Shown: one piece after another, positions 32,445-60,776 of the stretch
Layout: each line of letters begins with the position of its first letter
Position numbering within the stretch: position 1 is the stretch's first letter
From: Carallia brachiata
Taxonomy: Eukaryota > Streptophyta > Magnoliopsida > Malpighiales > Rhizophoraceae
Assembly: GCA_021464245.1 (NCBI GenBank)
Contig: JADCRB010000018.1
Span: 2,466,015-2,530,014, forward strand
Direction: 5' to 3'
DNA: 64,000 nucleotides
Program-made: the position numbers and the translations under genes
Notes under the pieces: model-generated
The model's database searches: none
Told to the model about the DNA's origin: nothing
Seen by the model: only the letters and a program-made list of their open reading frames with translations

Positions 32445-35400
32445 CTACCTATATAATTTAGCGAATAATTTGGGAACGGTATAGAAAACCAGGAAATAGC
32501 ATTCGTCTGTGAGATAATCAATGAACATGAACAACCTCCGTCGCCAGCCAAGGTTGACATAAAATACCAATGCAAAGCTCAACAGAAATACCAGGTAGGT
32601 TGCTATGAAGCTTGCAGTGAAAGAAACAGGATCAATGTCATGCCATTTTCCCTCACCTGTATCAGTATTGGATGGTGTCAATTGCGGTATGCCTTGAATG
32701 CAACTTCTCACTAATGGAGGTCCGCAAAGAAATGGATTTCCTTCATAGCTTTTGTTATCAAATGTTTGAAACTGCTTGTTCATGCATGGAAGCCTTCCGG
32801 ATAAGTTGTTGTAAGCCACATTGAAGTACGATAGGAAGGTAAGACCTATTAGTTCGGATGGAATTCCTCCACTTAAATTGTTGTGGGAAAGGTCTAAGCT
32901 CTCGAGCACTCCAAGATTTGCAAAAGTTTCCGGAATGAAGCCTGTGAACTGATTGTGAGACAAGTTCAATGCACGTATCCCACTTAAATTTCCGAGTTCT
33001 GTTGGTATTTCCCCTGTCAGCTGGTTGCAGGACAAATCCAATCCGGACATCAATTTAAGAATGCTACCTTTGTATTTGAGGGTTCTTGTTTTTGTCAAAA
33101 ACTCAACTTCCAGTTGTCGCACATACATAACATGCACTTCCCAGATATTCGTTACATTTCCTCCAATGTCGTAGTTGTGGTCGTATTCCCAGGTAAGGTA
33201 AACAAAGCCTGAAATTGCAAAATCAGACAAAGGTAACTTCCCAAAAGAGATGTTACCAAAACAGCGAGGTATGGGTCCAGAAAACGAGTTACGTGAGAGG
33301 TCCAGGATGCTAAGTTCATTCAACTGACACAGTTGATCTGGTATCAAACCCCTCAAGGAATTTCTGCCCAGTAGAAAAACCCTCAAATCCGATAAAGCCC
33401 CAACCGCGGATGGAATGCGACCAGATAGAAGATTATTTCCAATGTTTAGCGTCAGAAGACCAGAAGAATTGAATAATGTTTCCGGAATCGAACCAGTGAG
33501 TCTATTTCCTTCCAAATTGAAATGCTGTAAAGATGAAAAATTGAAGCAAGACGGAATAGGGCCTGAAAGAAAGTTATACGAAAGATCCAAAAGAACAAAC
33601 TCGAGCCTAGCCAGTTCACATGGAATTCTGCCTTCGAGCCTATTACCCGCCATGTTTAGTGTTCTTCCACCAAAAGGGGCCACATTGCCGACTGAGGAAG
33701 GAAGTTCACCTGATATCTGGTTGTCACTGATATCTAAGTACCCTAATCTTGGATTGTGTGAGATCCAACTCGACAGATTGCCTGTAATTTGATTTCCACC
33801 CAGTTGCAAGCTCTCCAATAGAGTCATATTAATGGAGTTTGGTATTTGGCCATATAATTTGTTGTCTGTAGCCGCCAAAATTCTCAAATTAGAGGAATTT
33901 GCTGCTCCTATCAAGGTAGTTGCAATGTCTCCTGAAAACCTGTTGTTGGATAAATCTAAAGATTCCAGCTTTGGCATTTGGCCAATTGAGAATGGTATGC
34001 GACCTTCAAAGGCATTTGCGGAAAGGTTAAGTAATTGAGCTATCGAAAACAAATGGCCAATATCTTGTTGAAGCCCCCCATAGAGGTGATTGTCTGATAT
34101 ATCTATGCGGTGCATCACAAAGCTGGAGTTGGAGGATAAATGGAATTGACCCGTGAAGGAGTTATTTCTAAGACTCAGGAACTCCATTTTTGTATTGTTT
34201 TCAAGCAACCAGTTGGGGAAGGTTCCAGTTAGGTTATTATGGGAAAGATCCACGAATCTCAAGTTTGTTTGGTGAGCAAGAAAATGAGGAATACTGTGAA
34301 ACTTGCAGTTTGGCATTGAAAGAACCTTAAGCTGAAATGTCGGTAGCCAATCATGAGAGTACTGAGTTTGGACCTCTAGCTTATGGTTAGGGCTTGATAA
34401 CATCAGCACTTCAAGGTTAGTGCGATTGGCAATTGAGTAAAAAGAGAATAGACCCTCAAAAAGATTATCTCTGAGATCAATATACCTGAGGTCTTTGAGA
34501 TTAAAAATTGGGGAGGATAAGATATCCCCTTCAAATTTGTTAAATGACAGGTCCAAAATTCTCAGAGATGTCAAACTGGCAAGACAAGGTGGAATAGTTC
34601 CGCTTAGATTATTTGCACTGAGATCCAACTCTTGAAGGTTCTTCAATTCACATAAGCCTGCAATAATAAATGTGGCAGAATCTCTATCATTTTCCGTCAC
34701 ATAAGAGATGTAATACCTAAATTTGAGCATTGACGAAATGTCAGTGACTACCTTGTTGGGCCAAAGATCCATTAAGAAGGTTGTGAGCCAAAGATAAAGC
34801 CTTAAGCGAAGTCATATTGCGAAGAAAATGGAAAACCTTTCCAGAAAGTTCATTCCAACTCAAATCTAGGATTTCCAATTTCTGCAAACTTCCCAGTTCT
34901 GTCAGATAGACTGAAACACAAAACAGTCAAATTGACATGTTAAAACCGCTAAATGGCCACATAAAGGAAACTCCCATACAATAGACCTTGTAGCAATGAA
35001 AAGGAAAAATCTAAGCAAAACAGAACCCAAGAGGATGAACAAAACAGTTCTTGTATCAGAAACAGGATATAGCTGTCAATAATTTATGAAACTATCATTG
35101 ACGATATGAACTACAAGTTGGATCGCTAGAAACAGGAAAAATGGCAGCTCGGGTTCCCTAATAAGGTAAAGCTTTTTGGCTGGTAGACGAGATATGTCCA
35201 AGGTGTGGGAGGCAGCGGAATGGCTGCTCATGCTCTTTCTTAGTGTCCCTAGGTTGTTGAAGTGTGATTCTTGTTTACTGTTGCTGCTCGTGTTAGGGAC
35301 CATCTCCACTTTGCTCTATGGGATTGGTTCAATTTCATACGAAATTTTGGTACGAAGGAACAAATGCAGTTACTTTTTATGGTGGCGTGGGCTATATGGT

Positions 35401-36798
35401 GGGGGAGATATTTATTTTTTATATGGAACGCAAAGTAGTTGAACCTCCAGATAATGTTAGAATGGCATTGCAGCTCTATGGGGACTTTCATGAGCGCAAA
35501 GTTAGTCATTTACTTGCTAAACATGCTCTAGTGGTTCTAGGAAAAGTTGTTTAGTCTTGTGATTTTCTGTCTTTTTTTTTTCGATGTAACATAATGCAAT
35601 TCTTATTTACCTCAAAAAAAAAAAAAAAAAAAAAAAACTTAGATCCGATTGTTCCAAGTTTTACCAAGAAACTAATTCTGCCAAAGAAGTTAAAATTTGA
35701 GAGACTTAAGATGCCCACCTCGGATGGGAAGATCGTCAAGAAAGCTGTTCAGAAGACGTAGTGATCGAAGCGATGTTAGGGTGCTTAGACATGGCAGTAT
35801 GCTGCTGTCTATACGGGAGGTGCTTAGATCTAGTGCCACCAAATTCTCCATTGCCTCGAAATCTATATATAAGTAATGTGTTACTAATACAAGTAAACTC
35901 GCGGTTTACAGTTCACAAAAACAAAACTATTATGAAGCACTAAATGTATAATGCGTTTAACTGCTGCACCCCAAATAGTTTAACAAGATATTGCATGCAC
36001 AATTTGCCAAGTAAAACCCAAAGTGCGGTTGTAATTTTCTGGTTGGATACTAGTTTTTACCGCGATCAACCAACTAAACCTGATTTAATGCTCTCTTGGA
36101 TTGCACCGGACCGACGTGTATATATATGCATATAGGCATGTCTGCGTGGGATATAATATGTAAATGATTGACAAACAGAAGCGAATGTTATTCTAGAAAG
36201 ACAAAGCAATTCAATCTGAAACATAATCTCATTATTTGGCTTTAAATAGTTAAATGAAGTAGAGTTAATCAAACTCTTTACTATATGCCAACTAGGAAAT
36301 AGTTGTTTCGTGTTTGTGTTGTAGATTATCAAAGAAACACGGACTGGAGAAACAAAAATGTATTAGAGCCATTGTATGTTACGTACCATAATTCTGGGAG
36401 CAGTTAGTTAACGAGAAATCGTATAAGCGTAAATTGAACAGATCCTTGAAAGGAGTAAACAAGGACATGTTTAGAGGCATGGGCAGACGCCAGGGCGGGA
36501 GCAGCAGGTAGCCGTATAAAGAGAGTTGAGTCACCCGGGAGGTGGTGCTATTACACTGGACTTCCTTCCAGCTGCAGCAGTGAGACTCTGGATCATCAGT
36601 CCACGAAGAAAGGAAATGTTCAGCGAACGATGGATATTGATCAGCAAAGTTTAACTTGAGGTAGTCCTTGATGCTTAATAGACCCAACCTTTCTTCCTCT
36701 ATACAACTCTCAACAACAACACCCATAAACACCACATGAATGGAAACCCAAAAACAATAATACTGTTTTCTAGTGAAGTATCCATATTCCATTGGCAT
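32445..36798 (-). CDS. LRR receptor-like protein (RLP), membrane-anchored, no kinase
   Basis: Four minus-strand exons: 36387-36798, 35719-35862, 34752-34898, 32445-34657, all GT..AG and phase 1, giving 971 residues with no stop. The ATG at 36798 is the first in frame and is followed by a hydrophobic signal peptide (about residues 10-32). Next come the paired-cysteine N-cap (CCSWKEVQC), about 30 plasma-membrane-type LRRs (LxxLDLSxNxLSGxIP), an island with EVEFLTKTRTLKYKGSIL, four more LRRs and a C-cap (NPFLCGPPL). A transmembrane helix at about 914-935 precedes a basic 36-residue tail starting NLGWRRR. There is no kinase domain. The layout fits the RLP class with CIEEER at the mature N-terminus (Arabidopsis RLP1/13-15-like, Cuscuta-receptor-like). 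Such proteins act at the plasma membrane as pattern receptors with SOBIR1-type partners; the ligand is unknown. A LINE tail occupies the intron between exons 2 and 3. Confidence 0.93.
35085..35637 (+). mobile_element. LINE 3' end with poly(A), inside RLP intron
   Basis: Plus-strand frames give WQLGFPNKVKLFGW and then EICPRCGRQ, the zf-RVT region at the end of plant L1 ORF2. About 370 nt later a frame ends GKVV-stop, followed by a short 3' UTR (ATGTAACATAATGCAATTC) and a pure A-run at 35614-35637. It is 5'-truncated, with at least one frameshift and no clear target duplication. It is antisense to the RLP gene. Confidence 0.75.
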
Positions 36799-39260
36799 GC
36801 AACAAAAGCACTAAAACAAAAATTAAAATTACGCACCCACTGCTTTACAATGGGTTCATTTTTGTATACATATTTTTATATACAGATGGTATATATATAA
36901 ATGTATTTTTGTGACGAACTTGATTATTTTTTCAATAATATTTATTATTTTTATAATAAAAAATTATATATTAATTTCTTATATCATATTTCATTAATTT
37001 TATTATAAAAATAAATAAATTCGTCACAATATATATACTAAACATAATTACTAAAATATAAATACCAAACTTTTTTCCTTTACCATTGCGATTTTAATTT
37101 CTCTCTCTCTCTCACACCACACGTATATAGAACAGAATATCTATGTAAGGGAGTCAACTTTTTCATGCAATGGTCAACTGTAAAGTGTAAACACACATAC
37201 ACACACACACAGAAAAGAGAGAGAGGAAGAAGTCAAAATAGGATGGTGATGGATGTTGAAAAAGAAAAAGAATGGAAGAATTGTCAACAATAGCAATTAA
37301 TCCATTCTCTACATGACCAAAAAACTTTGACAAGTTGATTGTCAAGTTGGCATAAGTAATTAACGGATGCAATAATCTTCTTTTGTCATATTTTTTCTTG
37401 ATCTGCAAATGAAGGGACACACCGAGAAAAAGGCAAAATCCCTCAAACATTTTCTTATTCTCTCTTTTTGTATCGTAGGCGTATGTTCTTCAATTTTTAG
37501 ATAAAAACTTAAAATATTAAAAAATTTTCAAAAATGTCTTGAACAAATTCAAACTTGTACAATTTATATCTAAACTTTCAATTGTTACGGTGCATAATTT
37601 TTAATATGATCTGTTAAATTTATATTCATATTTATTGTATATCAACTTTCATAAATTTTTAAATTTGTTTATTTATATGTGCAATACAGTCAAATTTAAT
37701 ATGTAATAAAAATATAAAAAAATAATTCTGCCTCTCTCCACAACAAACATTTTACCTGTCTATGTATTAAAACCCTCTATTGTCCCGCCAACTTCAACTT
37801 GCGCTCATTTTTTAGTCTCTCTTCTTTTTTTTTTTTTTTCCTGTCAAGACGATGCGTTGATTTTGTTGGGTTGGTTCTCTCTTTCTCTCACTAAAATCAC
37901 ACATCACGACGGCAACGCAAAGTAAATTAGACTCAAGGCTAAACGGGGCCTTTTTTATATTGTTGCTTTACTACTCTCATTTCTTTGGTTGTTATTTATC
38001 ACTTATCAGAAAAACTGGACGGCATAACCTTATGGGGGCGCTGGTCACATCTACGTCCCCCCAGAATTCAACCAATCAGTTAATTTTTTTAGCTTTTTCC
38101 TTTTCAAGAGAAAAGGGCACAATAATAAAAGTATAATGAAAAAATCGGAAAGTGCAATTATTATTTTTTTCTTCTATTTTTTTTTAAATAAAATTATTTA
38201 ATAATTCGTATTATTATATATATAAATGTACTTCAATTAAATTTTAATCTCTAAACTTTCTGATAATTATGTTATTAATGTTCAAGAACATTTAATATAA
38301 ATAATAAGTTAAAAAAAGATAATATCAAATGAATATTTATAATAAATTCATATATATATTACCACAAATTACTATACGTAGTTATTGTAGTGTTGAATTT
38401 AAAGCACATATCTATTATGTAACTGACAAACAAGAACAAGGAAAAATTCCCGCTACGCCACTTGCGTTCCGCATAAATACACTGGGGCCTGCTTTGGAAT
38501 TGACAAATTAGTTGCAAAAGTGACTTGTGGGATACGAAGTATTGCTAGATTTCAATTTTTTTTTTTTTTTAACAAAAAATGGTACATCCTGAGTATTCTT
38601 TACATCTTTTGTTATTTTGACATTGTCTCGTCGTCTTCAAGTTGTTCTCCCTAATAATAATATAACAATATAACGTGTCTCTCTCAGTATTAACTTAAAT
38701 TTAAATTTTTATGTTCGTATCTCTCTCAGTTATCTGGGATTAGCGTGAGTACGACATATAGAATTTAACATTTGTTAACACTGTAATCAAAATTAAGAAA
38801 AGATCGTTTTAGATCTAGTAATATTCTGCGTAGTGGGTTTTTCATATAGAGTAGATTGAATGGAGATATCAACAACTTAAAAGTCGGCTCCAACTTAAAA
38901 ATTCAATTACTTACATATTAATGATATAATATTTTTCGCTAAAAAAAAAGGTCATCTTCGAGTTGCGCTCATTTTTCATCGTTTTTTTGTCTGTTGAACT
39001 TTCAGAGACAATGCATTAAAGAGCAACATAAACGAACTGAGAATTTTGTCCCAGCCCGTTCCCAATTGCTGACGTAAGAAGATTTTTTTTTTTTCTGGAA
39101 AAAACTACACTTAAGTAATTTTTAATATTACTCTAAATATACTGAATATATTTTTAAATATTTAATTGAGCTTATAACCTAGGATCTTGTTTATTATTTA
39201 CCTCAAGTGCCAAAAGCTGTTCATTTTGTTGGGATAGAGAAATGCAGATTTAATCCCATG
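36799..39260. other. RLP upstream region and intergenic DNA
   Basis: The first few hundred bases upstream of 36798 should hold the RLP promoter; AT-richness prevents choosing a TATA box. A CT run (37099-37114), an (AC)n run (37190-37211) and a T run (37828-37842) are present. No coding content was recognised. Confidence 0.4.
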
Positions 39261-40119: not shown

Positions 40120-40124
40120 AATAG
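40120..40124 (+). repeat. left target-site duplication of LTR element 1
   Basis: AATAG here and AATAG at 49368-49372 flank the element exactly. The pre-insertion sequence read TTTGTTAATAAATAG|GGTGTCGATGAC, so these five bases were also the splice acceptor end of the CobW last exon. Confidence 0.85.
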
Positions 40125-40897
40125 TATAAAAGGTTGACTACTGTGATCGGCAATTGCTGACCATAGTAGCCATCAACTGCACAGTTGGTGGCTTTAATTT
40201 TCTTCTTTTCACACAATATTTTCACATTGAAAGGAGCCCTATAAATATGCCCTTGCTTCCCAGTTTAAAATAGATTCAGCAAATCCATAAACAGAAAAAT
40301 CCAGAAAATTTGAGAGAAAAATAAAATTTTGAAAATCTCTCAAAAAAATTTCTCATTTTCTTACGTATTTTCACTCTGCAGTATACTCTCTTAACTCCTT
40401 TTTAAGAGATATTTCCAGGGTAAACCCCAAAAAATTTACTGTTTCCATTTCTAAGGTTATTTTTAGATTTATATTTTCTGATCGCTCTAGATCTGAATTT
40501 ATAAGAATATAGATCTAAAAATATCAAATTATTACAAATCCGGCTGAGATCAAACCTCATACGACCCTCAGCAAAGTCCAGGCAACTCATCCGAGAACAA
40601 GTCCCTTCGACCCTCGATGAAATTAAGCCAGATCGGCTCAGATCAGGTCTCTGCGGTTCTTAACCGTAGCCTAAACGTCCAAACCAGATCCAGTTTCAGT
40701 CTACCCAGTTCAAGGAAAAAGCTGTGGAAATTATTTCTGTCAAGATCAAACTTGTGCAGCCCTTAACAGAGTCAAAAAAAGGAAATTAAGCCAGATCGAC
40801 CTCACGTAAATTTTCTTTTATTATAAATTTTTATTTGTAATTTATTTTTTTGTATTTTTTAGTTTAATTATTTTAGACTCGAAATTTACATGTTACA
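40125..40897 (+). repeat. 5' LTR of gypsy element 1
   Basis: Begins TATAAAAGGTTGACT (original TG eroded to TA) and ends GTTACA. It matches 48572-49367 throughout, with roughly fifteen substitutions in the first 200 bp by eye, so the insertion is not recent. It contains the palindromic ACTGCACAGTTGGTGGC block and a promoter-like CCCTATAAATATGCCC at about 40238. Confidence 0.9.
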
Positions 40898-42059: not shown

Positions 42060-42180
42060 AGCTCAACAGCTCAGCAGATCAACAAGCAGCTCATTAGCTC
42101 AACAAGTAGCTTAACAGCTCAACAAATAGCTCAACAGCTCTGCAGATTCGTAGCGTATCAGCTGAACAGCTCCACAACAA
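42060..42180 (+). repeat. short tandem repeat AGCTCAACA(A)
   Basis: Repeats of AGCTCAACAAGCAGCTCA-like units, about ten bases each, between the CCAAA-rich block and the TATA minisatellite of element 1. Confidence 0.6.
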
Positions 42181-42182
42181 AG

Positions 42183-42490
42183 CACTCCTGTCTCGCACGA
42201 GTATAAAAGGCGACATCACAGTTCAGCACTCCTGTCTCGCACGAGTATAAAAGGCGATAATCAATTCACCACAATTCAACACTCCTGCTCGCACGAGTAT
42301 AAAAGACGACATCACAGTTTAACACTCCTGCCTCGCACGAGTATAAAAGGTGACATCACAGTTCAACACTCCTGACTCGCACGAGTATAAAAAGCGAACA
42401 GCTCCACAACAAAGCACTCCTGCCTCGCACGAGTATAAACACCATAATTCAACACTCCTACCTCGCACGAGTATAAAAGGCGACAATACA
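42183..42490 (+). repeat. minisatellite with seven TATA boxes, unit about 44 bp
   Basis: Seven units of the form CACTCCTG(C/T)CTCGCACGAG-TATAAAAGGCGA carry TATAAA at 42202, 42246, 42298, 42342, 42386, 42433 and 42472. CTCG.ACGAG just before each TATA is palindromic. The unit resembles the single copy upstream of the homeobox ORF (46877-46926) and the array in element 2 (58400-58760). Confidence 0.85.
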
Positions 42491-42739: not shown

Positions 42740-44345
42740 CTCTACATTTCATGTCACAATTAGCGAAGAGGCTGAGTCCGACTTATCAGATGACGAAGTA
42801 AATGAGGCTCCCCCAGAACTTGAAGATGGTGATCAAGCAACTGTTGATGAACTCAAGGAGGTCAATCTTCGCTCTCTGGAAGATGCCCGACCTACATTTG
42901 TAAGTGTTTTACTTACTGCAGAAGAAGTGTAAGAATATGTTCAGGTATTAAGTCAATACAGGGACGTGTTCACATGGAGTTACAAAGAAATACCTGGACT
43001 TGACCCAAAAATTGCGGTGCATCGTCTAGCAGTAAAGAAGGGTGTTCGTTCTGTCAAGCAGCCACAACGACGGTTCCGCCAGAACTCATTCCACAAATCG
43101 AGGAGGAGGTTAACAAACTGATCAATGCTGGCTTCATCCGAGAGGTCACCTACCCAACGTGGATTGCCAACATAGTCCTGGTAAGAAAGAAGAATGGACA
43201 GTTGAGAATATGTGTTGACTTTCGAGATCTTAACAAGACTTGTCCGAAAGATGACTTTCTGTTGCCCATAACGGAGATCACAGTAGATCCAACAACAGGA
43301 CACGAAGTATTGTCCTTCATGCATAGTTCTTCAGGCTATAACCAAATCAGAATGACACCAGAAGACGAGGAGTTGACAGCATTTCGCACCTCAAAAGGTA
43401 TATACTGTTACAAAGTTATGTCGTTTGGATTAAAAAATGCTGGCGCCACTTATCAACGTGCCATGCAAAAAATTTTTGATGACATGCTGCACAAGATTGT
43501 AGAATGTTATGTTGATGACTTAGTTGTAAAGACTAAGAAGCGCAAAGACCACCTCGAGGATCTCAAGACGGTGTTCGAAAGACTTCGCAGGCATCAGCTT
43601 AAAATGAACCCTCTCAAGTGTGCATTTGGTGTCACATCAGGAAAGTTTCTTGGGTTCGTGGTGCGCCATCGTGGAATCGAAGTTGATCAGTCAAAGGTTG
43701 AGGCAATTCAAAAGATGTCTGAACCTAAAACCTGCATGAACTGCGAAGTTTACAGGGAAAGCTGGCCTACATTCGCCGTTTCATCTCCAACTTAGCTGGG
43801 AGATGTCAACCTTTCCATCGACTGATGAAGAAAAATGTCAACTTCGAGTGGGACGAAGCTTGCAGCAAAGCCTTCGAGAGCATAAAGAAGTCTCTTTCCA
43901 ATCCACCAGTCCTAGGTGCTCCAATTAAAGGAAGTCGTTGATTCTCTATATTGCAGAGCAGGAAAAATCTTTGGGAGCCCTGCTTGCACAGGAAAATAAG
44001 CAGGGAAAAGAAGTTGTTCTGTATTACTTGAGTAGAACACTAAACGGTCCAGAGCTGAGCTATTTGCTCATTGAAAAGACATGTCTAGCACTGTTCTTTG
44101 CCATTGATAAGCTGAGACACTACATGCAAGCTCACACGGTACGTCTCGTTGCTAGAGCTGCTCCTATCAAATATATCTTATCTAGACCAATCTTGTCAGG
44201 ACGACTTGCCAAGTGGGCAGTAATTCTACAGAGTTACGACATTGTCTACGTGCCTAAAAAAGCAGTAAAGGGATAAGCCTTAGCAGATTTCCTAGCAGAT
44301 CACCCTGTTCCGTCAGATTGGGAGTTCACAGATGATCTTCCGGAT
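42740..44345 (+). pseudogene. pol: reverse transcriptase and first RNase H of element 1
   Basis: From about 42800 the frame reads TVDELKEVNLRSLEDARPTF, then W-S-Y-K-E-I-P-G-L-D, the region before the palm domain of Tat-type pol. After a one-base loss near 43080 it continues with the reverse transcriptase core (LRICVDFRDLNKTCPKDDF; catalytic YVDD within ECYVDDLVVKT at about 43505). A second one-base loss near 43727 and a third near 43935 lead into a degenerate RNase H (ILYIAEQEKSLGALLAQENK; LARWA-like LAKWAVILQ). TAA at 44274-44276 and a TAA-like stop near 42930 add to the damage. Not functional. Confidence 0.9.
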
Positions 44346-44381
44346 GAAGAGGTCTTTTACATTGAGACACTACCACTATGG

Positions 44382-44777
44382 ACGATGTTCTTTGATGGTG
44401 CAGCAAGGCGTGATGGTGCTGGTGTCGACATAGTGTTTGTCACTCCTCAACGACAAATACTACCATATGCTATCATTCTCGGTGAGTTATGTTCAAATAA
44501 TGTTGCTGAATACCAGACTTTAATCATTGGTCTTCAAATGGCTGTCGATATGAAGATTCCAACTATAGAAGTTCACGGAGATTCTCAACTCGTCATCAAC
44601 CAACTTACAGGGCTATATGATGTGAAAAAAGAGGACCTTGCGCGTTACCATCAACGTGCTCGACAGCTAATAGATGAATTTGAAAGCATCACATTGGAGC
44701 ATGTGCCTCAGCGAGAAAACACTCAGGCAGACGCGTTGGCTAACCTGGCCACTTCTCTTGCAAAGTCAGAAATTTAG
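44382..44777 (+). pseudogene. second RNase H domain of element 1
   Basis: An intact-looking frame with the D-E-D-D set of an RNase HI fold: D in MFFDGAARRDG, E in NNVAEYQTLIIGL, D in VHGDSQLVINQL and D in NTQADALANLA. A second, archaeal-like RNase H after the ordinary one identifies the Tat/Ogre lineage. It is followed directly by the integrase region. Confidence 0.88.
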
Positions 44778-45720
44778 GTTACAGTTATTGTCGTATGCCA
44801 GAAATGGATAGTGCCGCAGAAGGATGATGAAGAAACTACAACAGCTAACGTTGTATCTGTACGTCTCGCGGAGGATGAAGATTGGCGCCAACCAATCATT
44901 GACTATCTACAGCACAGGAAGCTGCCCGAAGATCGTCGTCATAAGATAGAAATTCAACGACGAGCTTCCCACTTCATATATCTCAAGGATGCTCTGTATC
45001 GAAGGTCTTTTGATGGAGTTTTACTTCGCTGCCTAGGCAATGAAGAGGCAAAACAAGCTCTCACTGAAGCACATTCTGGTGTTTGTGGCGGACATCAATC
45101 AGGGCCTAAGTTACACTTTCAGCTTAGAAGGATGGGATACTACTGGCCAACCATGGTACGTGATTCATTTGAGTTTGCTAAAACCTGTCAAGCTTGTCAA
45201 TTTCATGCCAATTACATGCATCAACCACCAGAACCACTTCTCTTGCAAAGTCAGAAATCTAGGTTACAGTTGTTGTCGTATGCCAGAAATGGATAGTGCC
45301 GCAGAAGGATGATGAAGAAACTACAACAGCTAACGCTGTATCTGTACGTCTCGCGGAGGATGAAAATTGGCGCCAACCAATCATTGACTATCTACAGCAC
45401 AGGAAGCTGCCCGAAGATCGTCGTCATAAGATAGAAATTCAACGACGAGCTCCCCGCTTCATATATCTCAAGGATGCTCTGTATCGAAGGTCTTTTGATG
45501 GAGTTTTACTTCGCTGCCTAGGCAATGAAGAGGCAAAACAAGCTCTCGCTGAAGCACATTCTGATGTTTGTGGCGGATATCAATCAGGGCCTAAGTTGCA
45601 CTTTCAGCTTAGAAGGATGGGATACTACTAGCCAACCATGGTACGTGATTCCTTTGAGTTTGCTAAAACCTGTCAAGCTTGTCAATTTCATGCCAATTAC
45701 ATGCATCAACCACCAGAGCC
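44751..45720 (+). repeat. 485-bp tandem duplication in the integrase N-terminus
   Basis: Bases 44751-45235 are repeated at 45236-45720 with about a dozen differences (offset exactly 485, for example the same ATG context at 44811 and 45296). The joints lie in CCACTTCTCTTGC and CCACTGCATCC, sharing CCACT, consistent with unequal exchange at microhomology. Each unit encodes the junction to integrase and the H-H-C-C zinc finger (AEAHSGVCGG-HQSG; TCQACQFHA). Confidence 0.88.
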
Positions 45721-46480
45721 ACTGCATCCAACTGTCTCATCCTGGCCCTTTGAAGCTTGGGGTCTCGACTTAGTGGGGCCCTTGCCAAAGTCATCCCTGG
45801 GTCACCTTTACATCCTCGCAGGAACATACTACTTCTCAAAATGGGCAGAAGCTATTCCACTTAGAGAGGTAAAGAAGGAGCACGTTGCCAATTTCATCCG
45901 GACTCAACTGATATATCACTATGGAGTTCCTCGATTCATCATCACTGATAACGGCAAGCAGTTCTACAATAGGTTGATCGACAAGCTCTGCGAGAAGTTC
46001 AAGTTTAAGCAGTACAAGTCATCCATGTACAATGCCCCGGCTAATGGCTTGGCTGAAGCATTCAACAAGACTTTGTGCAACTTATTGCGGAAGGTAGTCT
46101 CTAAATAAAAAAGAGATTAGCATGACAGAATTCCAGAGGCATTATGGGCGTATCGTACAACTTACCGGACTCCAACACAGGCAACGCCATACTCACTTGT
46201 CTACGGTGTCGAAGCAATACTGCATTTGTAAACACAGATTCCATCTCTCCGCATGGCTGTTCTGGAAGGACTCACATAGGAGGAGAATGCTCGCCTACGT
46301 CTGGATGAGTTAGAAGCCCTCGATGAAAGGAGGTTCGAAGCACAACAACAACTTGAGTGCTACCAAGCCCGACTCACCAACACGTTCCACCGCAGGGTCC
46401 GCCCTCGATCTTTTCAAGTTCGAGACCTTGTTCTTGCAGTACGACGGCCCATCAACATGAAGCATCGGCCTGGTGACAAG
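44790..46480 (+). pseudogene. integrase of element 1, disrupted
   Basis: Two copies of the zinc-finger part are followed by the DDE core: D in GLDLVGPL, D in FIITDNGKQF and E in GLAEAFNKTLCNLL. The C-terminal part is in broken frames (RLRLDELEALDERRFEAQQQ; FQVRDLVLAVRR) to about 46480. The second zinc-finger copy has TAG at about 45629-45631, and a stop follows KVVSK at 46106-46108. It ends at an A-rich tract (46490-46575). Confidence 0.87.
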
Positions 46481-46894: not shown

Positions 46895-46926
46895 TATAAA
46901 CTGTGAACGGCCCAAAAATATAAAAG
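46895..46926 (+). promoter_or_regulatory. candidate internal promoter of the homeobox ORF, element 1
   Basis: Two TATA boxes, GAGTATAAACTGTGAA (46892-46907) and CCCAAAAATATAAAAG (46911-46926), lie 95-120 bp before the ATG at 47014. The same two boxes with the same spacing precede the homeobox ORF of element 2 (58384-58416, minus strand). Conservation between otherwise diverged copies suggests that this region is functional. Confidence 0.6.
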
Positions 46927-47013: not shown

Positions 47014-47640
47014 ATGGAACCAGTTGCAGAACCTCAAGACAAGGGAGAAGAAAGGTCACCCCACACAAGGTGGCAACCAACCATGGCACAACTGCAAATT
47101 TTGGAGGAAGTCTTCCACAACAATAAAGGTATTATTCCTAATGCATCTCAGATTTACCAACTTGTCTCGCGATTTCGCCCGCTCGGGGCAATCGAAGGAA
47201 AAAATGTGTTTTATTGGTTTCAGAATCGGAGAAGCAAGAAGAAACCAGCACTGAGAGCTGCTTTTTCCAAAGAACAGTCTGCCGTTCTGATAGTAGATCC
47301 CACTAGTACAACTTCGCCCTCAAATGAAGTAGCTCCGAGTTTTATTACTGCAATGGTCTCTTCAGGCTATAACGATCAAAGTCGTAGCCTGTGGGAGCAT
47401 GCGTACTGGTCCTGGTGGTCTTACGGAGTCAGTCAAGGGTTCATTCCTCCTAAGTACTTAAGTTCATGAGGGACTTTTATAGCAGAAGGAAGTCATTCCG
47501 GCGAAACTTTACCTCTCTTCCCAGAATATTCCAGGAGCATCAACCAGCCGGGAGGCTCCAACGACGTCAACATCATCGGCCCACCAGACGAGGCCGAGCT
47601 TGACTTGGAACTGCGCCTCGGGCCCCGCCAGGACAGTTGA
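47014..47640 (+). pseudogene. WUSCHEL-type homeobox (WOX) ORF inside gypsy element 1
   Basis: A 209-codon frame with one stop (TGA, codon 152, 47467-47469). Residues about 18-79 form a WOX homeodomain: TRWQPTMAQLQILEEVF, then SQIYQLVSRFRPLGAIEGKN, then VFYWFQNRRSKKK, with the W-F-x-N recognition-helix core. After the stop, the same frame contains the WUS-box TLPLFP (165-170) and the EAR-like LDLELRL (196-202), both in the positions seen in WUS-clade proteins. A middle block, SLWEHAYWSWWSYGVSQGF, is unlike known WOX proteins but nearly identical in element 2. The first 151 codons, including the full homeodomain, are open. WOX proteins are nuclear regulators of stem-cell identity; a truncated product could bind DNA without the repression motifs. 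No introns are present, consistent with capture from an mRNA. Clade assignment within WOX is tentative. Confidence 0.88.
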
Positions 47641-48557: not shown

Positions 48558-48571
48558 GAAGTGGGGGCATT
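48558..48571 (+). other. polypurine tract of element 1
   Basis: GAAGTGGGGGCATT directly precedes the 3' LTR (TGTAAAAGG). The identical 14-mer precedes the 3' LTR of element 2 on the minus strand. Confidence 0.8.
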
Positions 48572-49367
48572 TGTAAAAGGAAAAAAAAAAGGGTTGACTA
48601 TTGTGGTCGGCAATTGCCGACTACAGTAGCCACCAACTGCACAGTTGGTGGCTTTAATTTTTTTCTTTTCACACAATATTTTCACATTGAAAGGAGTCTT
48701 ATAAATAGGCCCTTACTCTCCAATTCAAAACAAATTCAGCAAATCCATAAACAGAAAAATCCAGAGAATTTGTGAGAAAAAGAAAATTTTGAAAATCTCT
48801 CAAGAAAATTTCTTCTTTTCTTACGTGTTTTCACTCTGCAGTATACTCTGCTAACTTCTTTTTGAGAGATATTTCAAGGGTAAGCTTCAAAAAATTTGCT
48901 GTTTCCATTTCTAAGGTTATTTTTTGGTTTATATTCTCTGATCGCTTTAGATATGAATTTATGAAAATATAGATCTAAAAATATCAAATTATTACAAATC
49001 AGGCTGAGATCAAACCTCATACGGCCCTCAGCAAAGTCCAGGTAACTCATCAGAGAACAAGTCCCTTCGACCCTCGGTGAAATTAAGCTAGATCGGCTAA
49101 GATCAGGTTTCTACGGTTCTTAACCGTAGCCTAAACGTCCAAATCAGATTTAGTTTCAGTCTACCCAGTTCAGGAAAAAACTGTAGAAATTATTTCTGTC
49201 AAGATCAAACTCGTGCAGCCCTTAACAGAGTCAAAAAAGGAACATTAATCGGAGGAATCACGAAAATCAACCTCACGTAAATTTTTTTTATTTTACATTT
49301 TTATTTATAATTTAATTTTTTGTATTTTTGAATTTAATTATTTTAAACTCGAAATTTACCTGTTACA
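48572..49367 (+). repeat. 3' LTR of gypsy element 1
   Basis: Begins TGTAAAAGG and ends GTTACA. It matches the 5' LTR along its length; the extra length is mostly an A-run near the start. It is followed by TSD AATAG. Confidence 0.92.
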
Positions 49368-49372
49368 AATAG

Positions 49373-49570
49373 GGTGTCGATGACATATTCCAAGGCTTGC
49401 AGGATCGATTATGGCGACCAAATGAATCTAGGATAAACAAAATTGTGTTCACAGGAAAGAACTTGGATCAACAGGAAATTGAAAGTGCTTCAAAGCCAGC
49501 TGACTTTGATTTGCGAATAGGATGTGTTTTTAAGTTAAAGCCTTTTTTCTGTGACTCAGCCAAATATTGA
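49373..49570 (+). pseudogene. last exon of a CobW-like GTPase gene, copy A, cut off by element 1
   Basis: Reads GVDDIFQGLQDRLWRPNESR, then INKIVFTGKNLDQQEIE, the C-terminal end of plant CobW/COG0523 metallochaperone-like GTPases (Arabidopsis AT1G15730 ends with a similar segment). A frame change after QEIES moves the end to a later TGA (49568-49570) instead of the usual GFKACL-stop seen in copy B. The splice acceptor AATAG belongs to the target duplication of element 1, and upstream coding exons are now 9 kb away and eroded. The GTP-binding domain is not in the window. Confidence 0.8.
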
Positions 49571-52500
49571 CTGTTTATTGAATATGGCTACATTACCAGC
49601 ATTTTACTGTAACCAAAAAAAAAAGAAAAAATAAGCAAATAAGAGCAACCAACATTGGCGAATTAAGTTGCTCTAATGGGATCGACGATGGAATTTTTTT
49701 TGGCTTATGCGTTTATCTTTTTATTATATAATTTTCTTTAATGATGGTAGTTTTCTAACTTCAAGGCCTTTTTTTTTTCTTTTGGCAAATTGCTCCCTCT
49801 TTTTTTCTTTTGTCTTTCAAATGGCTATCTTATGGTCTTGAAATGTAAGAGAAATCATTTCAAATCAGTCTACAACGAAGAAAAAAAAAAAAGGAAAGAA
49901 ATCATTGCAATCATGCAACTCATACCACATATCATGGCAATCACAACCATCGTTTAGTTCTTGCGTTATTTAAGTGAAAAATTTCTGCATTGTTGGCTTT
50001 CATGCACTGCATTAATATAAACAGGATACACATGGTTATTTATAATTGCATTGTTAAAGCAATTTAGCTTAGAAGATATGGATCTCATATAATAAATTGT
50101 TGCTAGTAGGAGAAAAATTATTCTAATCTATTAGAGGAAATTAATCAGAAAAATATGCTAAAATTTATTCTTTTTTATGACTGATTTCACTATTGTTGGC
50201 ATTGATCAAGGTAAAAACTAGAACACTTCTTAGGCTTGTATTGCCAGTAACATGTAACGAGTCAAAATCATGAATGATAGGCGCTTTTGCAATTAGAGGT
50301 ATGGTTATGCGAAGAAATATAGAAAATAACGTTTTATCTCATCCGATCAAATATTTAGAGTTGAATCAACTGAGTCAGTAATTGATCAATTTACAGACTT
50401 GGACTCCATTAGTGCAAATTGCGGTGATGGCAAAATAAATTTATTGTTTATATATCTATCGATAACATTATTTAGTAAATTGGTACAAGCTTATCAGTTG
50501 TGACGACATATTATCAACCATCTGATGAGAAGATCCAAATTTAGAATATGAATTTTTGTAACTATTACAAGTAGGACCAAACTATTTCGGATTAAAACTT
50601 ATTGTTTTACACCATATCATTTATAAAGGAGTCATTCTCAGGGCGGAACTAGACTAAACTAGACTAAAAATTGTTGTTCAAGTGTGTCCATCTTGTCTAA
50701 GTTCAGGCCAAAATCGGTGTGTCTGATTGGTCCATCGCTAGTGTAAGTAATAATAGGCGATAAGACTGAAAATATGACTAACCATGGCTTGAACAGATTT
50801 AGCTTGGGCCTTATTGTCATTTTGTCTTGTTAAAAAATTGGTAGCAACTTCTTGTGTAGTTTTATGAGACTTTTTTTTAATTATAAATAGTCATTGCCTT
50901 GCACTTTGTATTCAAAGTTTGTGTTTCACTTTTAACCAATTTTTTATTTTTTCTTGTTAATATTGATATGAAACTAAATTTAAACAAGAAATAAAATAAG
51001 TGAAGGTATATTAATATACAGCAGTCAGTGTAGTTCATAGTTGCGCCAAAAGTGTTGCTTGACATGGTAAATTGTAATTGCGAAAGGAGAAAAAGACAAA
51101 CTTTCTTAGGATACGATTATAATTTATCATTCACGGAGAGAATGAGTCGATCAAGTAACAATCTTAAGCCTGCATCAAGCTTTTGCTCACCGAATAAAAT
51201 TGTTTGTAATAGTAAATATTGTGGTGGCTAAAAGAACAAAGATGATAACAACAATTCCTTGGTTCCTTTTCAATGGACTATTGCTTCGTGAAAAGTAAGA
51301 AAATGAAGAAAGAAAAATCATTGCGGTGGCAGATTCAAGCTATTATTCTTAGAGAAAGTTTTCTTTATTTTTCTCGAGTTTTGTTTGAGGGAAAGCGTTC
51401 TTACGTTATGCCAACAATATTTATGTCTAAATTGCTTTTGTTGGTGATGATTAATGCATCCCAATGCCAGAAAATCATGACGAGATTATGCAAATGGGAA
51501 ATATAAACCCATTTCATAAGTTAGTTCCTAAAGTAGTTAGGTGAAATCTACTTTGAATATTATATATTCATGCATTCCATAGTTAGGGAATGGTCATGCT
51601 TTGAATATAAAAGTTGAAAATATAAACTTTGGTAACCGAAGCCATCCATTGTCGGTGGGAAAAAAATTTATGTAAAATAGATTACCACATATCTTTGTTA
51701 GTAGAAAATAAACCAATAAATTATAATTATGTATTGGAGGAAATTAAGGTTCAAAATTCAATTAAAATCATTCAAGCAAGTTAGTTTCTTAATTACCAAA
51801 ATATGGTTCAAATGGGAGAGTCATTTTTTTAGCTGATAATGTTGGCTCTATAGAGTCTTTAATAGGAAATCATCAAAGCAAATTTTGCAACCTCATGCAA
51901 AAGCTGCGACTAACAACTAACAAAACAGAAATAGGCTCTCTTCAATACAAATAAGGTGGCACCAATACAAATTGTTCCTAATGATACTAAACTAGTAAAA
52001 ACATAAAGATACCCAAATCACATTACATTGTTAGAAACCATATAAAAGATCTATATGTATTCAACTTCAAAGTCATTTTCCACTGAAAAACACTTTGTAA
52101 TTTTAAACTACAACTAAAATAATTGAAGATTAAGAAAATTTGAAATGGTTGATTTGACAGTCAGTGGACCAATTTTGAGTAGTCATAACTTTTGTGCTAA
52201 TAGGACTAATTATAAAAAGTTTTAGCACCAAATTTTTTTGTTGTTTTAGTGTTGAGAGGTTCTTAAGGTTTAGTACATTATTATACTAATTTTAACCATT
52301 AATATGCTCATTTCATTTGATTATCAGCATTTGCACAATTGTAAAACATTCTTATAGACTTTGGTGGAGATTCAATTATTGTTAGAAATATAAAAAGTTT
52401 AATATACAAATATATTATGAAATTGCATAACTTTACAAATTTAGCCGAACTGTCGAAAAGTACTGGATAGTATTTACAGAATTTTTTCGCAGCAAATTGA

Positions 52501-53916: not shown

Positions 53917-54053
53917 CATGTTAATGACATATTCAAGGATCGCCGGATCAATTTTAGGAACCAGATGAAACTAGGATAAACAAGATTGTGTTCGCAGGAA
54001 ACAACTTGGATCAACAAGAAATTGAAATGGGTTTCAAAGCCTGCTTACTGTGA
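53917..54053 (+). pseudogene. last exon of a CobW-like gene, copy B, with indels
   Basis: After a normal acceptor (ATTTTATTTACAG) it encodes H-V-N-D-I-F, then TRINKIVFAGNNLDQQEIE and MGFKACLL-stop in the proper C-terminal order. One base is missing in TTCAAGG and the D-Q-F-W-R part is garbled around 53952-53975, so the frame is broken. The end matches the family better than copy A. Confidence 0.75.
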
Positions 54054-55789
54054 TTTGCTGATAGGATGTGTTTTAAGTTGAAGCCTTTTTCTGTCTCAGA
54101 CAAATGTTGACTGTTCATTGAACATTGCTACGTTGCCAGCATTTTACTGCAAAATAAATAAATAAATAGATAAGAGCAGCCAATTTTGATGGATTTAGTT
54201 GCTCTAAACGAATCGACAATGAAATTTTTTTGGGGAAACACTAATGCCTTTTTTATTTTTTACCTCTTTGTTTTTTCTTACTTGACAGTGGTTTTCCCGT
54301 TCACGGCCATTGTTCTTTTCCTTTGGCAAATTGCTCAATTTCTTTTCAATTGCCTATTCCATGATCTTCAAGTGTTAAGGAAAAGGTAGACAGAGAGATC
54401 GTTTCAAATCAGGAAAAGTGAAAAAAAAAAAAAAAATCGCAATCGCAACATGACAATTACTCCCATTAATTACTTCCTGTATTATTTGCGTAGAAATTTG
54501 CTTCATTATTGACGTTCATGCATCTTGAATACAGAAAAGTTCATGTTATAAATATGAAATTCATTATTATAAACATGATATACATAGTTGCTCAAAATTG
54601 CATTGTTTTTTTGGGTCTTCCCTTAGTATCCGGTATATTTCATTGGGTCCCCGACTAATCTGATTCGAGTACTGTCGGGTCCATATTAAGGCCTATACGA
54701 GATCTCATGATTTTAACAAATTGTTAATAGCATGAGAGAAGACATCGTGATGTATTGGAGTAAATTAAAAAGTAAAATGTTCTTGAACTTATTATTGTGT
54801 AAAACTAATATCATTATTGTTGGTTGCATACTTGGAGTAACTTCGATAAAGAAGATTATAAAAATTTGTGATCTAAGATGCAATGAAACCTTATTGTTGC
54901 AAGTATTATGAAAAAGTATTTCAAGTACTCAAAACAAATACGAGTACTATCAAAATGAGGTGTAAATCTTGTGACCTGTGGCACAATGCGACAATTACTA
55001 CAAATAGCATAAATAAATGGAAGTGTCATGAAGAATGATGTGGAATGAATGTTGAATAATTTGAAAATGTAGTTCTGGATATATGGAGAAATATAGAAAA
55101 TAATATTTTATCTTATCCCACCAAATATTTAGAATTGAATCGATTTAATAGACGCTGAGACCTGACTAACCCACAAGCATGATTAGATTTAGCTTGGGCC
55201 TTATTGTTATTATATCTAGGATTCCATTAAGTGGCCAAAAGAATTTGTCAAAAAAATTTCTATAATGCTATTATGTGGATTTATTATGTAACTGTATTGA
55301 TTACAAATGTAATAAAAAAATAAAAAAATAATTATTTTTTCATCGCACAATAAATTTATATAGTTACAAATAATTTTTAATTGATTACATTTTAAAAATT
55401 CTTCTAAATATTTTGCTCCGGACAAAAACTTTTCTGCTTATATCTATTATAAGTTTTGGTCAAAAACTTGTCCTTGTAGTACAATGAGAAAACTTGTAGT
55501 CATTGGCTTGCGCTTTGTGTGCATATATTGTGTTTTCATTTCAAATCAATCTTGATTGTTTTTGTGTTAATATTAATATGAAACTAAATTCGACAAGAAA
55601 TTGATAGTTGAAGGTATGCTAATGTACAGTAGTCATTGTAATTCATCCTTTTGGAAATGGTGTAGATTGAAATGGTGAAACAGTAAAAGATATAATCTTT
55701 CTTAGGATACGATAATAATTTATCATGCTAAAAGAATATGAATTGATCAATTAAGAATCTACAATTGCTTCGTCCCTTTTTCAATGGAT
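54054..55789. other. duplicated CobW 3' flank, copy B (left part)
   Basis: Noncoding. It aligns by eye to 49571-51280, for example AGCAGCCAATTTTGATGGATTTAGTTGC against AGCAACCAACATTGGCGAATTAAGTTGC. It differs by a SINE fragment insertion at 54605-54700. Confidence 0.6.
54605..54700 (-). mobile_element. SINE 3' fragment, present only in copy B
   Basis: On the minus strand it reads TACTCGAATCAGATTAGTCG, then GGATACTAAGGGAAGACCC and A7. This resembles the 3' end of the complete SINE at 63409-63607 (TACTCGGATCGGTCTAAATTAGTC..AATACTGGGCGGTCTCAGAC then poly(A)). Copy A lacks it. Confidence 0.5.
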
Positions 55790-55794
55790 TATTA

Positions 55795-56777
55795 TGTGAA
55801 ACAGGAACCCCTATGGTTTCGAGTCTACAACATTTAGGTCTCGAAAAATACAGATATAAATTATAAGTGAAAATTAAAAAATTATGTGGGGTTCGATATC
55901 TGAATAGATCATCCGATTAATACTCCTGTGATTTAGTTAAGGGTTGCACGAGCTTGATTTTAATCGAAAGATATTAAATTTCCACAGCGTGATATTAAAC
56001 TGTAGGAAATAGATTACACTGAAGGACGAAACTTAATCTCAGGTGGTGCTGGAACTCCAATGAGGGCCGTAGAGGCTTGATCTCGTTCGGAATGGTTTGG
56101 TTCCAGTAAAAGCCGTATGGGCTTGGTCTCAGGTGGATTGATTTGACTCCATTAAGGGTCGAGGCTTGATCCCACTCAGACTGTTTAGCTCCACTGAGGG
56201 CCGTAGAGGCTTTATCTTAGATAGACTTACTTCGTTAAGGCCTGTAGGAGGCTTTATCTCAGACAAAGGTTTAATATTTTAATATTTTAGATATTTTCTC
56301 TCGCCGATCTCAATTTGAGGCGACCGGAGAGCGTATACCCAAAATATACTTGGAAATGGATATAATAAATATTTTGGGTGTTGTATCTGGGATATCTCCC
56401 TTAATAGAGTTCGGAGAGTATAAGCCTAGTATACAAAAACATAGGAAAGGATTTAAATTTTTCTTTTGGGACAAATTTTAATTGCCAACTTGATTCTCCG
56501 TGCTCCAATTGGCTTGCCTTACTGCCTATTTATAGGCAGTCTGGCAAGGAAGAGGACCAAAATTTCTTCCGTTTTTTTTTTTTAATGCTTCCACCGTCAT
56601 GGCCACCATTTTCTAATGTTGGCACCACCATGGTCACCATTTCAATGTTTGCACTGCCATGGCTACTACTTCTCCATGTCTGCACTGCCATTGACTTTGA
56701 ATTTTTTTTTCTTCTTCTAGATGTCGGTCACTGACTTGGACTTTTCTTCTTCTTTTTTTTTTTTTTTTGTATTTACA
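55795..56777 (-). repeat. 3' LTR of gypsy element 2
   Basis: Plus-strand boundaries TGTGAAACAGGAAC..ATTTACA. It matches 60777-61747 over its full length. It contains about six diverged tandem units of about 50 bp (56015-56270) sharing GAGGGCCGTAGAGGCTTGAT. Similar AAACCTCATACGGCCCTCAG text occurs in the LTRs of element 1, showing relatedness. Confidence 0.9.
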
Positions 56778-56791
56778 AATGCCCCCACTTC
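56778..56791 (-). other. polypurine tract of element 2
   Basis: GAAGTGGGGGCATT on the minus strand next to the 3' LTR, identical to element 1. It fixes the element's orientation. Confidence 0.8.
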
Positions 56792-57681: not shown

Positions 57682-58308
57682 TCAGTCATCCAGGTGGGGC
57701 CTAAGGCGCAGCCCCAAGTCAATCTTGGCCTCGTCCGATGGGCAGATGATGTTGATGTTGCTGGAGCCTTCTGGGTGGTTGATGCTGCCGGAATATTCTG
57801 GAAAGAGAGATAAAGTTTCGCCTGAATGACTTTTTTCTGCTAGAAAAGTTCTTCCTGGACTTAAGTACCCATGAGGGATGAACCCTTGACTGACTCCGTA
57901 AGACCACCAAGACCAATGTGCATGCTCCCACAGGCTACGGCTTTGATCAACATAGCTTGGAGAGACTATTGCAGTGGTAGAACTCGGACATGCTTCATTT
58001 GAGGGTGAAGCTGTATCGGTGAGATCTACTACGGGAATGACAGACTGTGCTTTGGAAATAGCATCTTTCAGCGCCGCTCTCTCCTTATTTCTCCAATTTT
58101 GGAACCAAAAACGTACATTTTTTCCTTCGACTGTCCCTAGCGGGTGCAGTTGTGAGGCAAGTTGGAGAATCTGTGATGAGTTAGAGACAATATCTCAATT
58201 GTTGTAGAAGAACTCCTCCAAAATTTGGAGTTGCGCCAAAGCTGGGTGCCATCTTTTGTGGGGTGACCTTTCTTCTTCCTTAACCTATTGTTCTGCAAAT
58301 GGTTCCAT
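57682..58308 (-). pseudogene. WUSCHEL-type homeobox (WOX) ORF inside gypsy element 2
   Basis: Also exactly 209 codons from ATG to final TGA and collinear with the copy in element 1. Homeodomain: KRWHPALAQLQILEEFFYNN, then SQILQLASQLHPLGTVEGKN, then VRFWFQNWRNKERA; the W-F-x-N core is kept. The block SLWEHAHWSWWSYGVSQGF is almost unchanged. The WUS-box is TLSLFP and the C-terminal EAR-like motif is IDLGLRL; no stop interrupts this half. In-frame stops are TAG at codon 8 and TGA at codon 38, neither shared with element 1, and the element 1 stop (codon 152) is a glycine here. So the two copies were broken independently after a long period without indels. Many codons differ in amino acid, so the family is old. 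Confidence 0.87.
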
Positions 58309-58416: not shown

Positions 58417-58760
58417 TCATGCGGGCCAAAAGTTGGACTGGATGTTGAGTTTGGTTTTTGGGCCGTTCATAGTTTATACTCGTGCGGGCCAAAAGTTGGA
58501 CTGGATGTTGAGTTTGGTTTTTGGGCCGTTCATAGTTTATACTCGTGCGGGCCAGGATTCTTGGACTGGGTCCTGTGTTGTTGTTGCCGTCTCACCTTTT
58601 ATACTTGTGCAGGCAAGAGTGTTGAACTGTGTTGTTGTTTTTTATACTCATGCGAGGCAGGAGTGTTGATTTGTGATATCGCCTTTTATACTCGTGTAAG
58701 GTAGGAGGGTGCTTCTGTTGATCGCCTTTTATACTCATGGGAGGCAGGAGTGTTGAACTG
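58400..58760 (-). repeat. TATA-bearing minisatellite of element 2
   Basis: About seven units containing TTTATACTCRTG.(G)GC on the plus strand, that is GC.CAYGAGTATAAA on the minus strand. The first three are almost perfect 62-63-bp repeats (58409-58560, sharing AAAAGTTGGACTGGATGTTG and TTTTTGGGCCGTTCATAG); the rest are shorter, resembling the 44-bp unit of element 1. Confidence 0.8.
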
Positions 58761-58789
58761 CTGAGCTGTTGAGTCGTTGAACTGTTAAG

Positions 58790-60772: not shown

Positions 60773-60776
60773 ATTT

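Follow-up and report, generated by a model that had tools for sequence, protein, structure and literature searches.

We analyzed a 64,000-nucleotide stretch of Carallia brachiata DNA (contig JADCRB010000018.1, positions 2,466,015 to 2,530,014 of the forward strand; hereafter the window) in which a gypsy-type long terminal repeat (LTR) retrotransposon, here called element 1, carries an open reading frame (ORF) for a WUSCHEL (WUS)-type homeodomain protein. Frames of this WOX type recur across the genome within related elements, and their homeodomain was conserved while the elements multiplied. We have little doubt that selection maintains the frame as a resident accessory gene. Our favored reading, held with moderate confidence, is that it is a WUS-type accessory gene of a high-copy Tat gypsy element, likely captured from spliced WUS mRNA, and that its protein likely aids the element in meristem cells. 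The more specific proposal that this product is a nuclear DNA-binding protein that helps element expression or spread in those cells is a tentative one.

Results

A WUS-type homeodomain frame in element 1

The 627-nt frame at 47014-47640 (plus strand) starts with 151 codons free of stops, is interrupted by a TGA at codon 152 and continues for 57 residues. A profile search of its translation, which had been suggested along with the original prediction made from the letters alone, matched the homeobox profile PF00046 at codons ~17-79 with an E-value of 2.6e-12, above the Pfam cut-off. When the protein was compared with solved structures by phmmer, WUSCHEL in the PDB was nearest (E 3e-17), and STENOFOLIA matched with an E-value of 1.2e-14. 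These matches bear out the prediction of an intron-less WOX homeodomain frame with its first 151 codons open. The WUS-box (TLPLFP) and the terminal EAR motif (LDLELRL) named in that prediction were likewise found, both of them 3' of the TGA in the window copy. AlphaFold2 modeling of the 151 residues that precede the TGA in the window copy predicts three helices, with pLDDT >90 in blocks of residues 21-70 and mostly low confidence for the remainder, and a Foldseek search with the predicted homeodomain fold ranked WUS homeodomain-DNA structures at the top. A second WOX copy, with two stops, lies in element 2 at 57682-58308 (minus strand) and is 65% identical to the first over 208 residues. Protein database searches with the WOX query returned cellular WOX proteins, and no element-borne relatives were evident among the 11 matches of one search or the top 120 of the 456 from another; a scan of viral contigs with the same query gave no match.

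Element 1 belongs to the Tat lineage

Element 1 is flanked by a target site duplication (TSD), AATAG, at 40120-40124 and identically at 49368-49372. Its 5' LTR (40125-40897, plus strand) and 3' LTR (48572-49367, plus strand) are 89% identical, with 71 mismatches over 769 ungapped columns. The LTR ends of the family are TG..TTACA or TTTACA, and the 5' LTR of the window has an A for that G. Between the LTRs, all on the plus strand, are a tandem array of ~44-52-bp units with a TATAAAA-like core (42169-42490; repeat search and self-blast), a reverse transcriptase (RT) fragment (43004-43795; PF00078, E 1.1e-30), the RT-associated RNase H (43929-44276; PF17917, E 2.4e-23), an additional RNase H of the RVT_3 type (44277-44777; PF13456, E 7.6e-22) and broken integrase pieces with an H2C2 zinc domain and an rve core (44778-46108; PF17921, E 2.2e-9, and PF00665, E 3.7e-8). 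A predicted TATA box, TATAAAAG, is found at 46919-46926, ~90 nt 5' of the WOX ATG, and the polypurine tract GTGGGGGCA at 48561-48569 is present as an identical string in 18 of 20 elements fetched from the genome. The WOX frame is thus sense-oriented between the integrase and the 3' LTR of a gypsy element, as originally described, and the LTRs, TSD and upstream pol domains are all in place. The integrase region also contains a 490-bp direct duplication (44749-45238 and 45234-45723, 97% identical by self-blast); paired integrase matches ~600 bp apart on contigs C2 and C10 hint at similar duplications elsewhere.

The domain order RT-RNase H-RVT_3-integrase of element 1 was also seen in copies L020 and L023. 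In the angiosperm Ogre/Retand elements of the Tat clade, a second RNase H is placed between RNase H and integrase (PMC6317226). Since the additional RNase H sits between RNase H and integrase, element 1 is by its domain order a Tat-lineage Ty3/gypsy retrotransposon.

WOX-bearing elements are present across the genome

A search of the genome (337.5 Mb in 164 contigs) with the WOX query yielded 2,061 first-look candidates. The best 150 of these were scored, all with E ≤1.9e-80, and by hand count 100 of the 150 had no stop within the matched codons. The copies fall into two homeodomain types. A 37-base homeodomain piece of type A had 648 matches (≤3 mismatches) and a 40-base piece of type B had 154, with none for the reversed control of either. 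As the two patterns differ at more than three places, the counts can be summed to ~800 homeodomain matches, whole or broken. An integrase 37-mer had 763 matches in the genome, again with none for the reversed control. Among the matches listed, the 40-base piece was identical in all type-B copies of the L069-L088 set.

On contig C1, at least 11 of the 15 listed integrase matches had a WOX within ~1.6 kb; the remaining four, together with six of the seven listed on C2, were fetched, and WOX was downstream in 10 of 10, several of them broken. A conserved integrase piece was directly upstream of WOX in 19 of 20 long stretches, the exception being L028. Besides an open WOX of 207 residues, L020 contains a frame of 756 residues that weakly matches an aspartyl protease (E 0.003, under the cut-off) and one of 957 residues with the order RT-RNaseH-RNaseH-integrase. 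WOX was inside a gypsy retrotransposon at all 32 closely examined places (the two window copies, L009-L028 and L089-L098), of which the 20 long copies were chosen on purpose, 16 of them from two tied, likely young groups among the 150 best of 2,061 candidates. Further copies in LTR elements, which the original prediction had proposed to look for, are therefore present genome-wide, and the feature is larger in extent than was supposed.

The homeodomain is under purifying selection

Substitutions were counted by site-by-site parsimony on a tree of 49 rows, 36 of them distinct sequences; the second window copy served as the root, and the two root branches were left out. On internal branches the homeodomain had 20 synonymous and 7 nonsynonymous changes, a ratio of rates (omega) of 0.15, whereas terminal branches had 42 and 58, with an omega of 0.61 (Fisher p 0.004). 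For all 150 codons the contrast (0.50 versus 0.73) was not significant (p 0.14). A second set added type B and comprised 67 rows, 47 of them distinct, with L081 (broken N-terminus) and L082 (gap) left out. The homeodomain then had 38 synonymous and 27 nonsynonymous changes on internal branches (omega 0.31) against 51 and 86 on terminal ones (0.74; p 0.006), and all codons together gave 0.53 versus 0.84 (p 0.012). Binomial tests of the homeodomain's internal branches against neutrality gave 4e-6 for the first set and 3e-6 with type B, and the nonsense changes in codons 1-150 (type B included) numbered none on internal and six on terminal branches. These values are to be read with the use of parsimony, the kinship of the copies, a sample picked by similarity and possible recombination in mind. 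Since omega for the homeodomain is low on internal and higher on terminal branches, purifying selection acted on it along the lineages that went on to spread and was relaxed after insertion. Its conservation while the elements multiplied suggests that the elements likely use the gene.

Motifs were tallied over 46 loci, recounted by hand (the 49 rows minus the duplicates L002=L025, L003=L026 and L005=L027). There was no stop before codon 81 in 43 of them, 35 were open to codon 195 or beyond, and 31 had the WUS-box within the open frame, which in most type-B copies reads ILPLFP. The recognition helix is VFYWFQNRRSRKKPAL in type A and VYFWFQNRRHRETVAL in type B, compared with VFYWFQNHKARERQK in WUS. 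The two types differ at the end of this helix, RRSRKKPAL in type A versus RRHRETVAL in type B, and this difference may alter DNA preference.

Probable origin from a host WUS gene

The host genome contains two WUSCHEL genes (WUSa and WUSb; G000:C90:2365810 and C65:260991) and homologues of WOX1, 2, 3, 4 and 5, all separate from the elements and named from our own reading of their homeodomains. The pairs of WUSCHEL, WOX1-like and WOX4-like genes may reflect a genome duplication. In WUSa the exons are apart with stops between them, and introns lie between the homeodomain and the WUS-box, whereas the element ORF is continuous. The segment from helix 1 to helix 2 has 19 residues in types A and B and in both host WUS genes versus 18 in host WOX1-5, the extra residue being WUS-specific. 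Because the ORF is intronless and has this residue in common with host WUS, a spliced WUS mRNA of the host is the likely source from which the element WOX was captured. The homeodomain identity of the element WOX to cellular WUSCHEL is ~45-50%. In a homeodomain tree the element proteins group into a single clade (100/100), which has a long stem and is not placed inside any cellular WOX group. The capture likely came before types A and B parted, and before the two window elements did.

Most young copies retain the frame

LTR pairs were found for 14 of the 20 long copies, some partial where the fetched stretch started inside an LTR. Mismatches per column, excluding gaps (many of which fall in A-runs), were fewest in L020 (1/645), L022 (1/262), L017 (2/772) and L012 (3/534), followed by L024 (6/955), L018 (6/854), L023 (8/941), L011 (11/631) and L009 (13/690); higher counts were those of L014 (18/741), L010 (20/778), L016 (25/856) and L026 (29/482), and the pair of L028 had 97.3% identity. 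Those lacking a pair were L013, L015 and L021, with the 5' side not fetched, L025 and L027, left out since they lack the exact polypurine string, and L019, in which the 5' side was fetched yet gave only a 76-bp partial LTR match. Six of the seven young copies (1-8 mismatches) have the WUS-box and EAR in one open frame, the seventh, L012, having slipped after the WUS-box; the LTR pairs of L020, L017 and L024 enclose open WOX frames. A 5-bp TSD was clear in three of seven further copies (L009, L018 and L024), none was seen in L023 and L028, and it was not determinable in L026 and L016. From the LTR mismatches and a substitution rate of 1.3e-8, we roughly estimate that the youngest copies are much less than 0.2 million years old and that the window element is ~4 million years old.

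Elements without detected pol

Element 2, on the minus strand, has a 5' LTR at 60773-61753 and a 3' LTR at 55791-56779, 88% identical and with approximate outer limits; no TSD was recognized by eye. Its LTRs had no match to those of element 1 in self-blast, no pol was detected in it and none of it matched the element 1 pol. A gag-like piece at 59660-60052 matched PF03732 with an E-value of 0.0021, under the Pfam cut-off. What elements 1 and 2 share is the WOX and the 3' region, at ~76-81% identity. A tandem array at 58535-58773 is akin to the one in element 1. L028 (G000:C49:793024-803023) is an LTR element that keeps the WOX part without detected gag or pol; what it has in common with the full element L020 is mainly WOX and the 3' region, and it looks like a non-autonomous carrier of the accessory gene. 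The tandem units with a TATAAAA-like core are just 5' of WOX in L028 and element 2; in some copies that bear pol they lie ~4 kb 5' of it.

All 20 fetched elements have AATATAAAAG 95-97 nt 5' of the WOX ATG, and in the second window copy AATATAAAAA occupies the position aligned with the predicted TATA box.

Other features of the window

A leucine-rich repeat (LRR) receptor-like protein frame of 788 residues lies at 32445-34811 (minus strand), with an LRR N-terminal piece upstream at 36379-36810 (minus strand). The protein is 71% identical to a match from Rhizophora mucronata, and the next matches by score are from Centaurea solstitialis (45%) and Vernicia fordii (56%), so that the protein by itself likely places the plant in the Malpighiales close to Rhizophoraceae. 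An open frame at 25506-26246 (plus strand) has a B3 DNA-binding domain (PF02362, E 3.2e-14). Between elements 1 and 2, self-blast detected a repeat pair, 75% identical, at 49380-49892 and 53924-54435.

Discussion

The favored reading can be laid out as a series of events. A spliced host WUS mRNA would have been captured between the integrase and the 3' LTR, and the resulting WOX would be transcribed from the predicted TATA box just upstream. The protein would then enter the nucleus and bind DNA, which might benefit the element in meristem cells, the cells that found the germline; this final step is the most speculative. More broadly, we put forward as a possibility that a retrotransposon took the stem-cell master regulator WUSCHEL as an accessory transcription factor, with its DNA-binding domain under selection and its recognition helix diversified into subfamilies, to act in germline-founding meristem cells. 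Such a gene would parallel, in plants, the accessory genes with which retroviruses regulate transcription and the proto-oncogenes that they have captured.

Several observations weigh against the favored reading. Pol is far more tightly constrained than WOX, with an omega of 0.06 on internal and 0.38 on terminal branches (parsimony over 500 codons of 19 copies, not counting L028, which lacks pol, or L021, of which 52% was covered). Codons 77-150 of WOX had an omega of 0.73 on internal versus 0.87 on terminal branches (p 0.53; binomial against neutrality 0.08), which is no significant constraint; they serve as an internal control for mutation bias. EAR lies in the open frame at 25 of the 46 loci (38 in any frame), with slippage in a simple repeat between it and the WUS-box. 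The window copy is not alone in having a TGA at codon 152; this stop is common to 6 of the 46 loci, and therefore a lineage without WUS-box and EAR, retaining the homeodomain and middle only, has also spread. Descent alone could explain why the predicted TATA box is common to the copies. We also compared five LTRs with 200 shuffles for TTAATSS, TAAT, TGAATGAA, TGAATGA and CACGTG, which we take to be WUS motifs (25 tests, uncorrected). Four of the five LTRs had no excess of these motifs; that of element 2 alone did, with four TTAATSS versus 0.9 expected (2 of 200 shuffles). Self-regulation of the element through WUS sites in its LTRs is thus not supported by this test.

It is conceivable, if rather unlikely, that the gene acts on the host, either as a diverged WUS mimic or antagonist that shifts stem-cell fate or through a WUS-linked antiviral defence, and so provides more cells for the element to jump in. 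WUS is linked to antiviral immunity. A homeodomain retained with an altered recognition helix would suit such a role, as would a WUS-box within the open frame at 31 and an EAR at 25 of the 46 loci, and LTRs that lack a clear excess of WUS sites; however, a harmful developmental effect at hundreds of copies would be selected against in the host. That WOX is a functionless passenger, transduced and copied along, seems improbable to us. Captured host genes are common in plant LTR elements (PMC7264820), the middle of the protein is without significant constraint, and the truncated-frame lineage also spread. On the other hand, the homeodomain's internal omega of 0.15-0.31 is under neutrality and under that of the terminal branches, WOX was found at every one of the ten fetched integrase loci, and both window elements, whose LTRs are dissimilar, have kept it.

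The conserved item could instead be a DNA or RNA signal acting in cis, for packaging, dimerisation or as a promoter, and elements without gag or pol would for that reason keep the region. The makeup of L028, which shares mainly WOX and the 3' part with a full element, and that of element 2, without detected pol, are consistent with this idea. Yet nonsynonymous changes fall short of synonymous ones, a signal at the level of codons that reaches significance in the homeodomain alone, and we regard a cis signal as quite improbable. We see next to no chance that the window holds two unrelated host WOX pseudogenes that came to lie near LTRs by accident. Both window copies do carry stops, but the copy number of ~800, the fixed position after integrase, the TSDs and the LTR pairs rule this out, and the host WOX genes are separate, with introns in the host WUS gene.

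The function of conserved extra ORFs in plant LTR elements is described as unknown, and the antisense ones as without clear cellular relatives (PMC7264820). The WOX-bearing gypsy family unites a conserved extra ORF with a recognizable host regulator, whose homeodomain is under purifying selection, at ~800 copies. Surveys with a 250-codon cut-off, the threshold given for extra ORFs in PMC6317226, would miss the 207-codon WOX ORF. WOX gene counts in annotated genomes may also include element genes. Since much is established about the binding of WUS, its repression motifs and its phenotypes, what an accessory gene does for a retrotransposon can be tested directly here.

Host-gene transduction in plant LTR elements reportedly includes LOGL4 and histone H3. 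As in Bs1 and the captured genes of sorghum, host coding sequence is found here within an LTR element (PMC7264820), but transduced extra ORFs are reported at one or a few copies each (PMC7264820, PMC11963269), compared with ~800 here and purifying selection on the homeodomain. The slot itself is familiar. Retand, Grande and RIRE2 of the Tat lineage have a conserved antisense extra ORF between pol and the 3' LTR; the Grande product is nuclear with its own promoter, and the TRP28 domain of Retand probably binds DNA (PMC7264820, PMC11963269). Those ORFs are antisense and without clear cellular relatives (PMC7264820), whereas the element WOX is in sense and akin to cellular WUS. The sense ORFs of Athila and Bagy2 are alike in slot and orientation but env-like (PMC7264820), where the present one encodes a homeodomain protein. 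With cellular WUSCHEL (host C90 and C65; PDB 6ry3 and 6ryd) the element WOX has in common the predicted homeodomain fold and the WUS-length loop, and at part of the loci a WUS-box and an EAR in the open frame; it differs in being intronless, in the altered end of its recognition helix and in residing in a mobile element.

In the main texts of PMC11963269 and PMC13317346 the strings 'homeo', 'WUS' and 'WOX' are absent, as are 'homeo' and 'WUS' from that of PMC6317226. The original prediction knew of no published description; this holds for anatomy and selection, for which we found no analysis in the open-licence literature, and does not hold for the amplification of LTR-flanked WOX, which has a precedent in Vigna (PMC10714607). 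As far as the open-licence literature searched extends, the kind is thus known in outline, and the anatomy, the Tat lineage, the integrase association and the selection result are new. A 2023 meeting report describes many WOX copies in Vigna marina and V. riukiuensis (>1000 in the latter), mostly between identical LTRs with TSDs (PMC10714607). The two cases are alike in their many LTR-flanked WOX copies with target site duplications (PMC10714607). The legume case, compared by description only, comes with no account of the lineage of the elements, of where WOX sits in them, of selection or of the anatomy of the protein (PMC10714607), whereas here the host belongs to the Malpighiales, WOX follows the integrase of a Tat element, and selection on it was measured.
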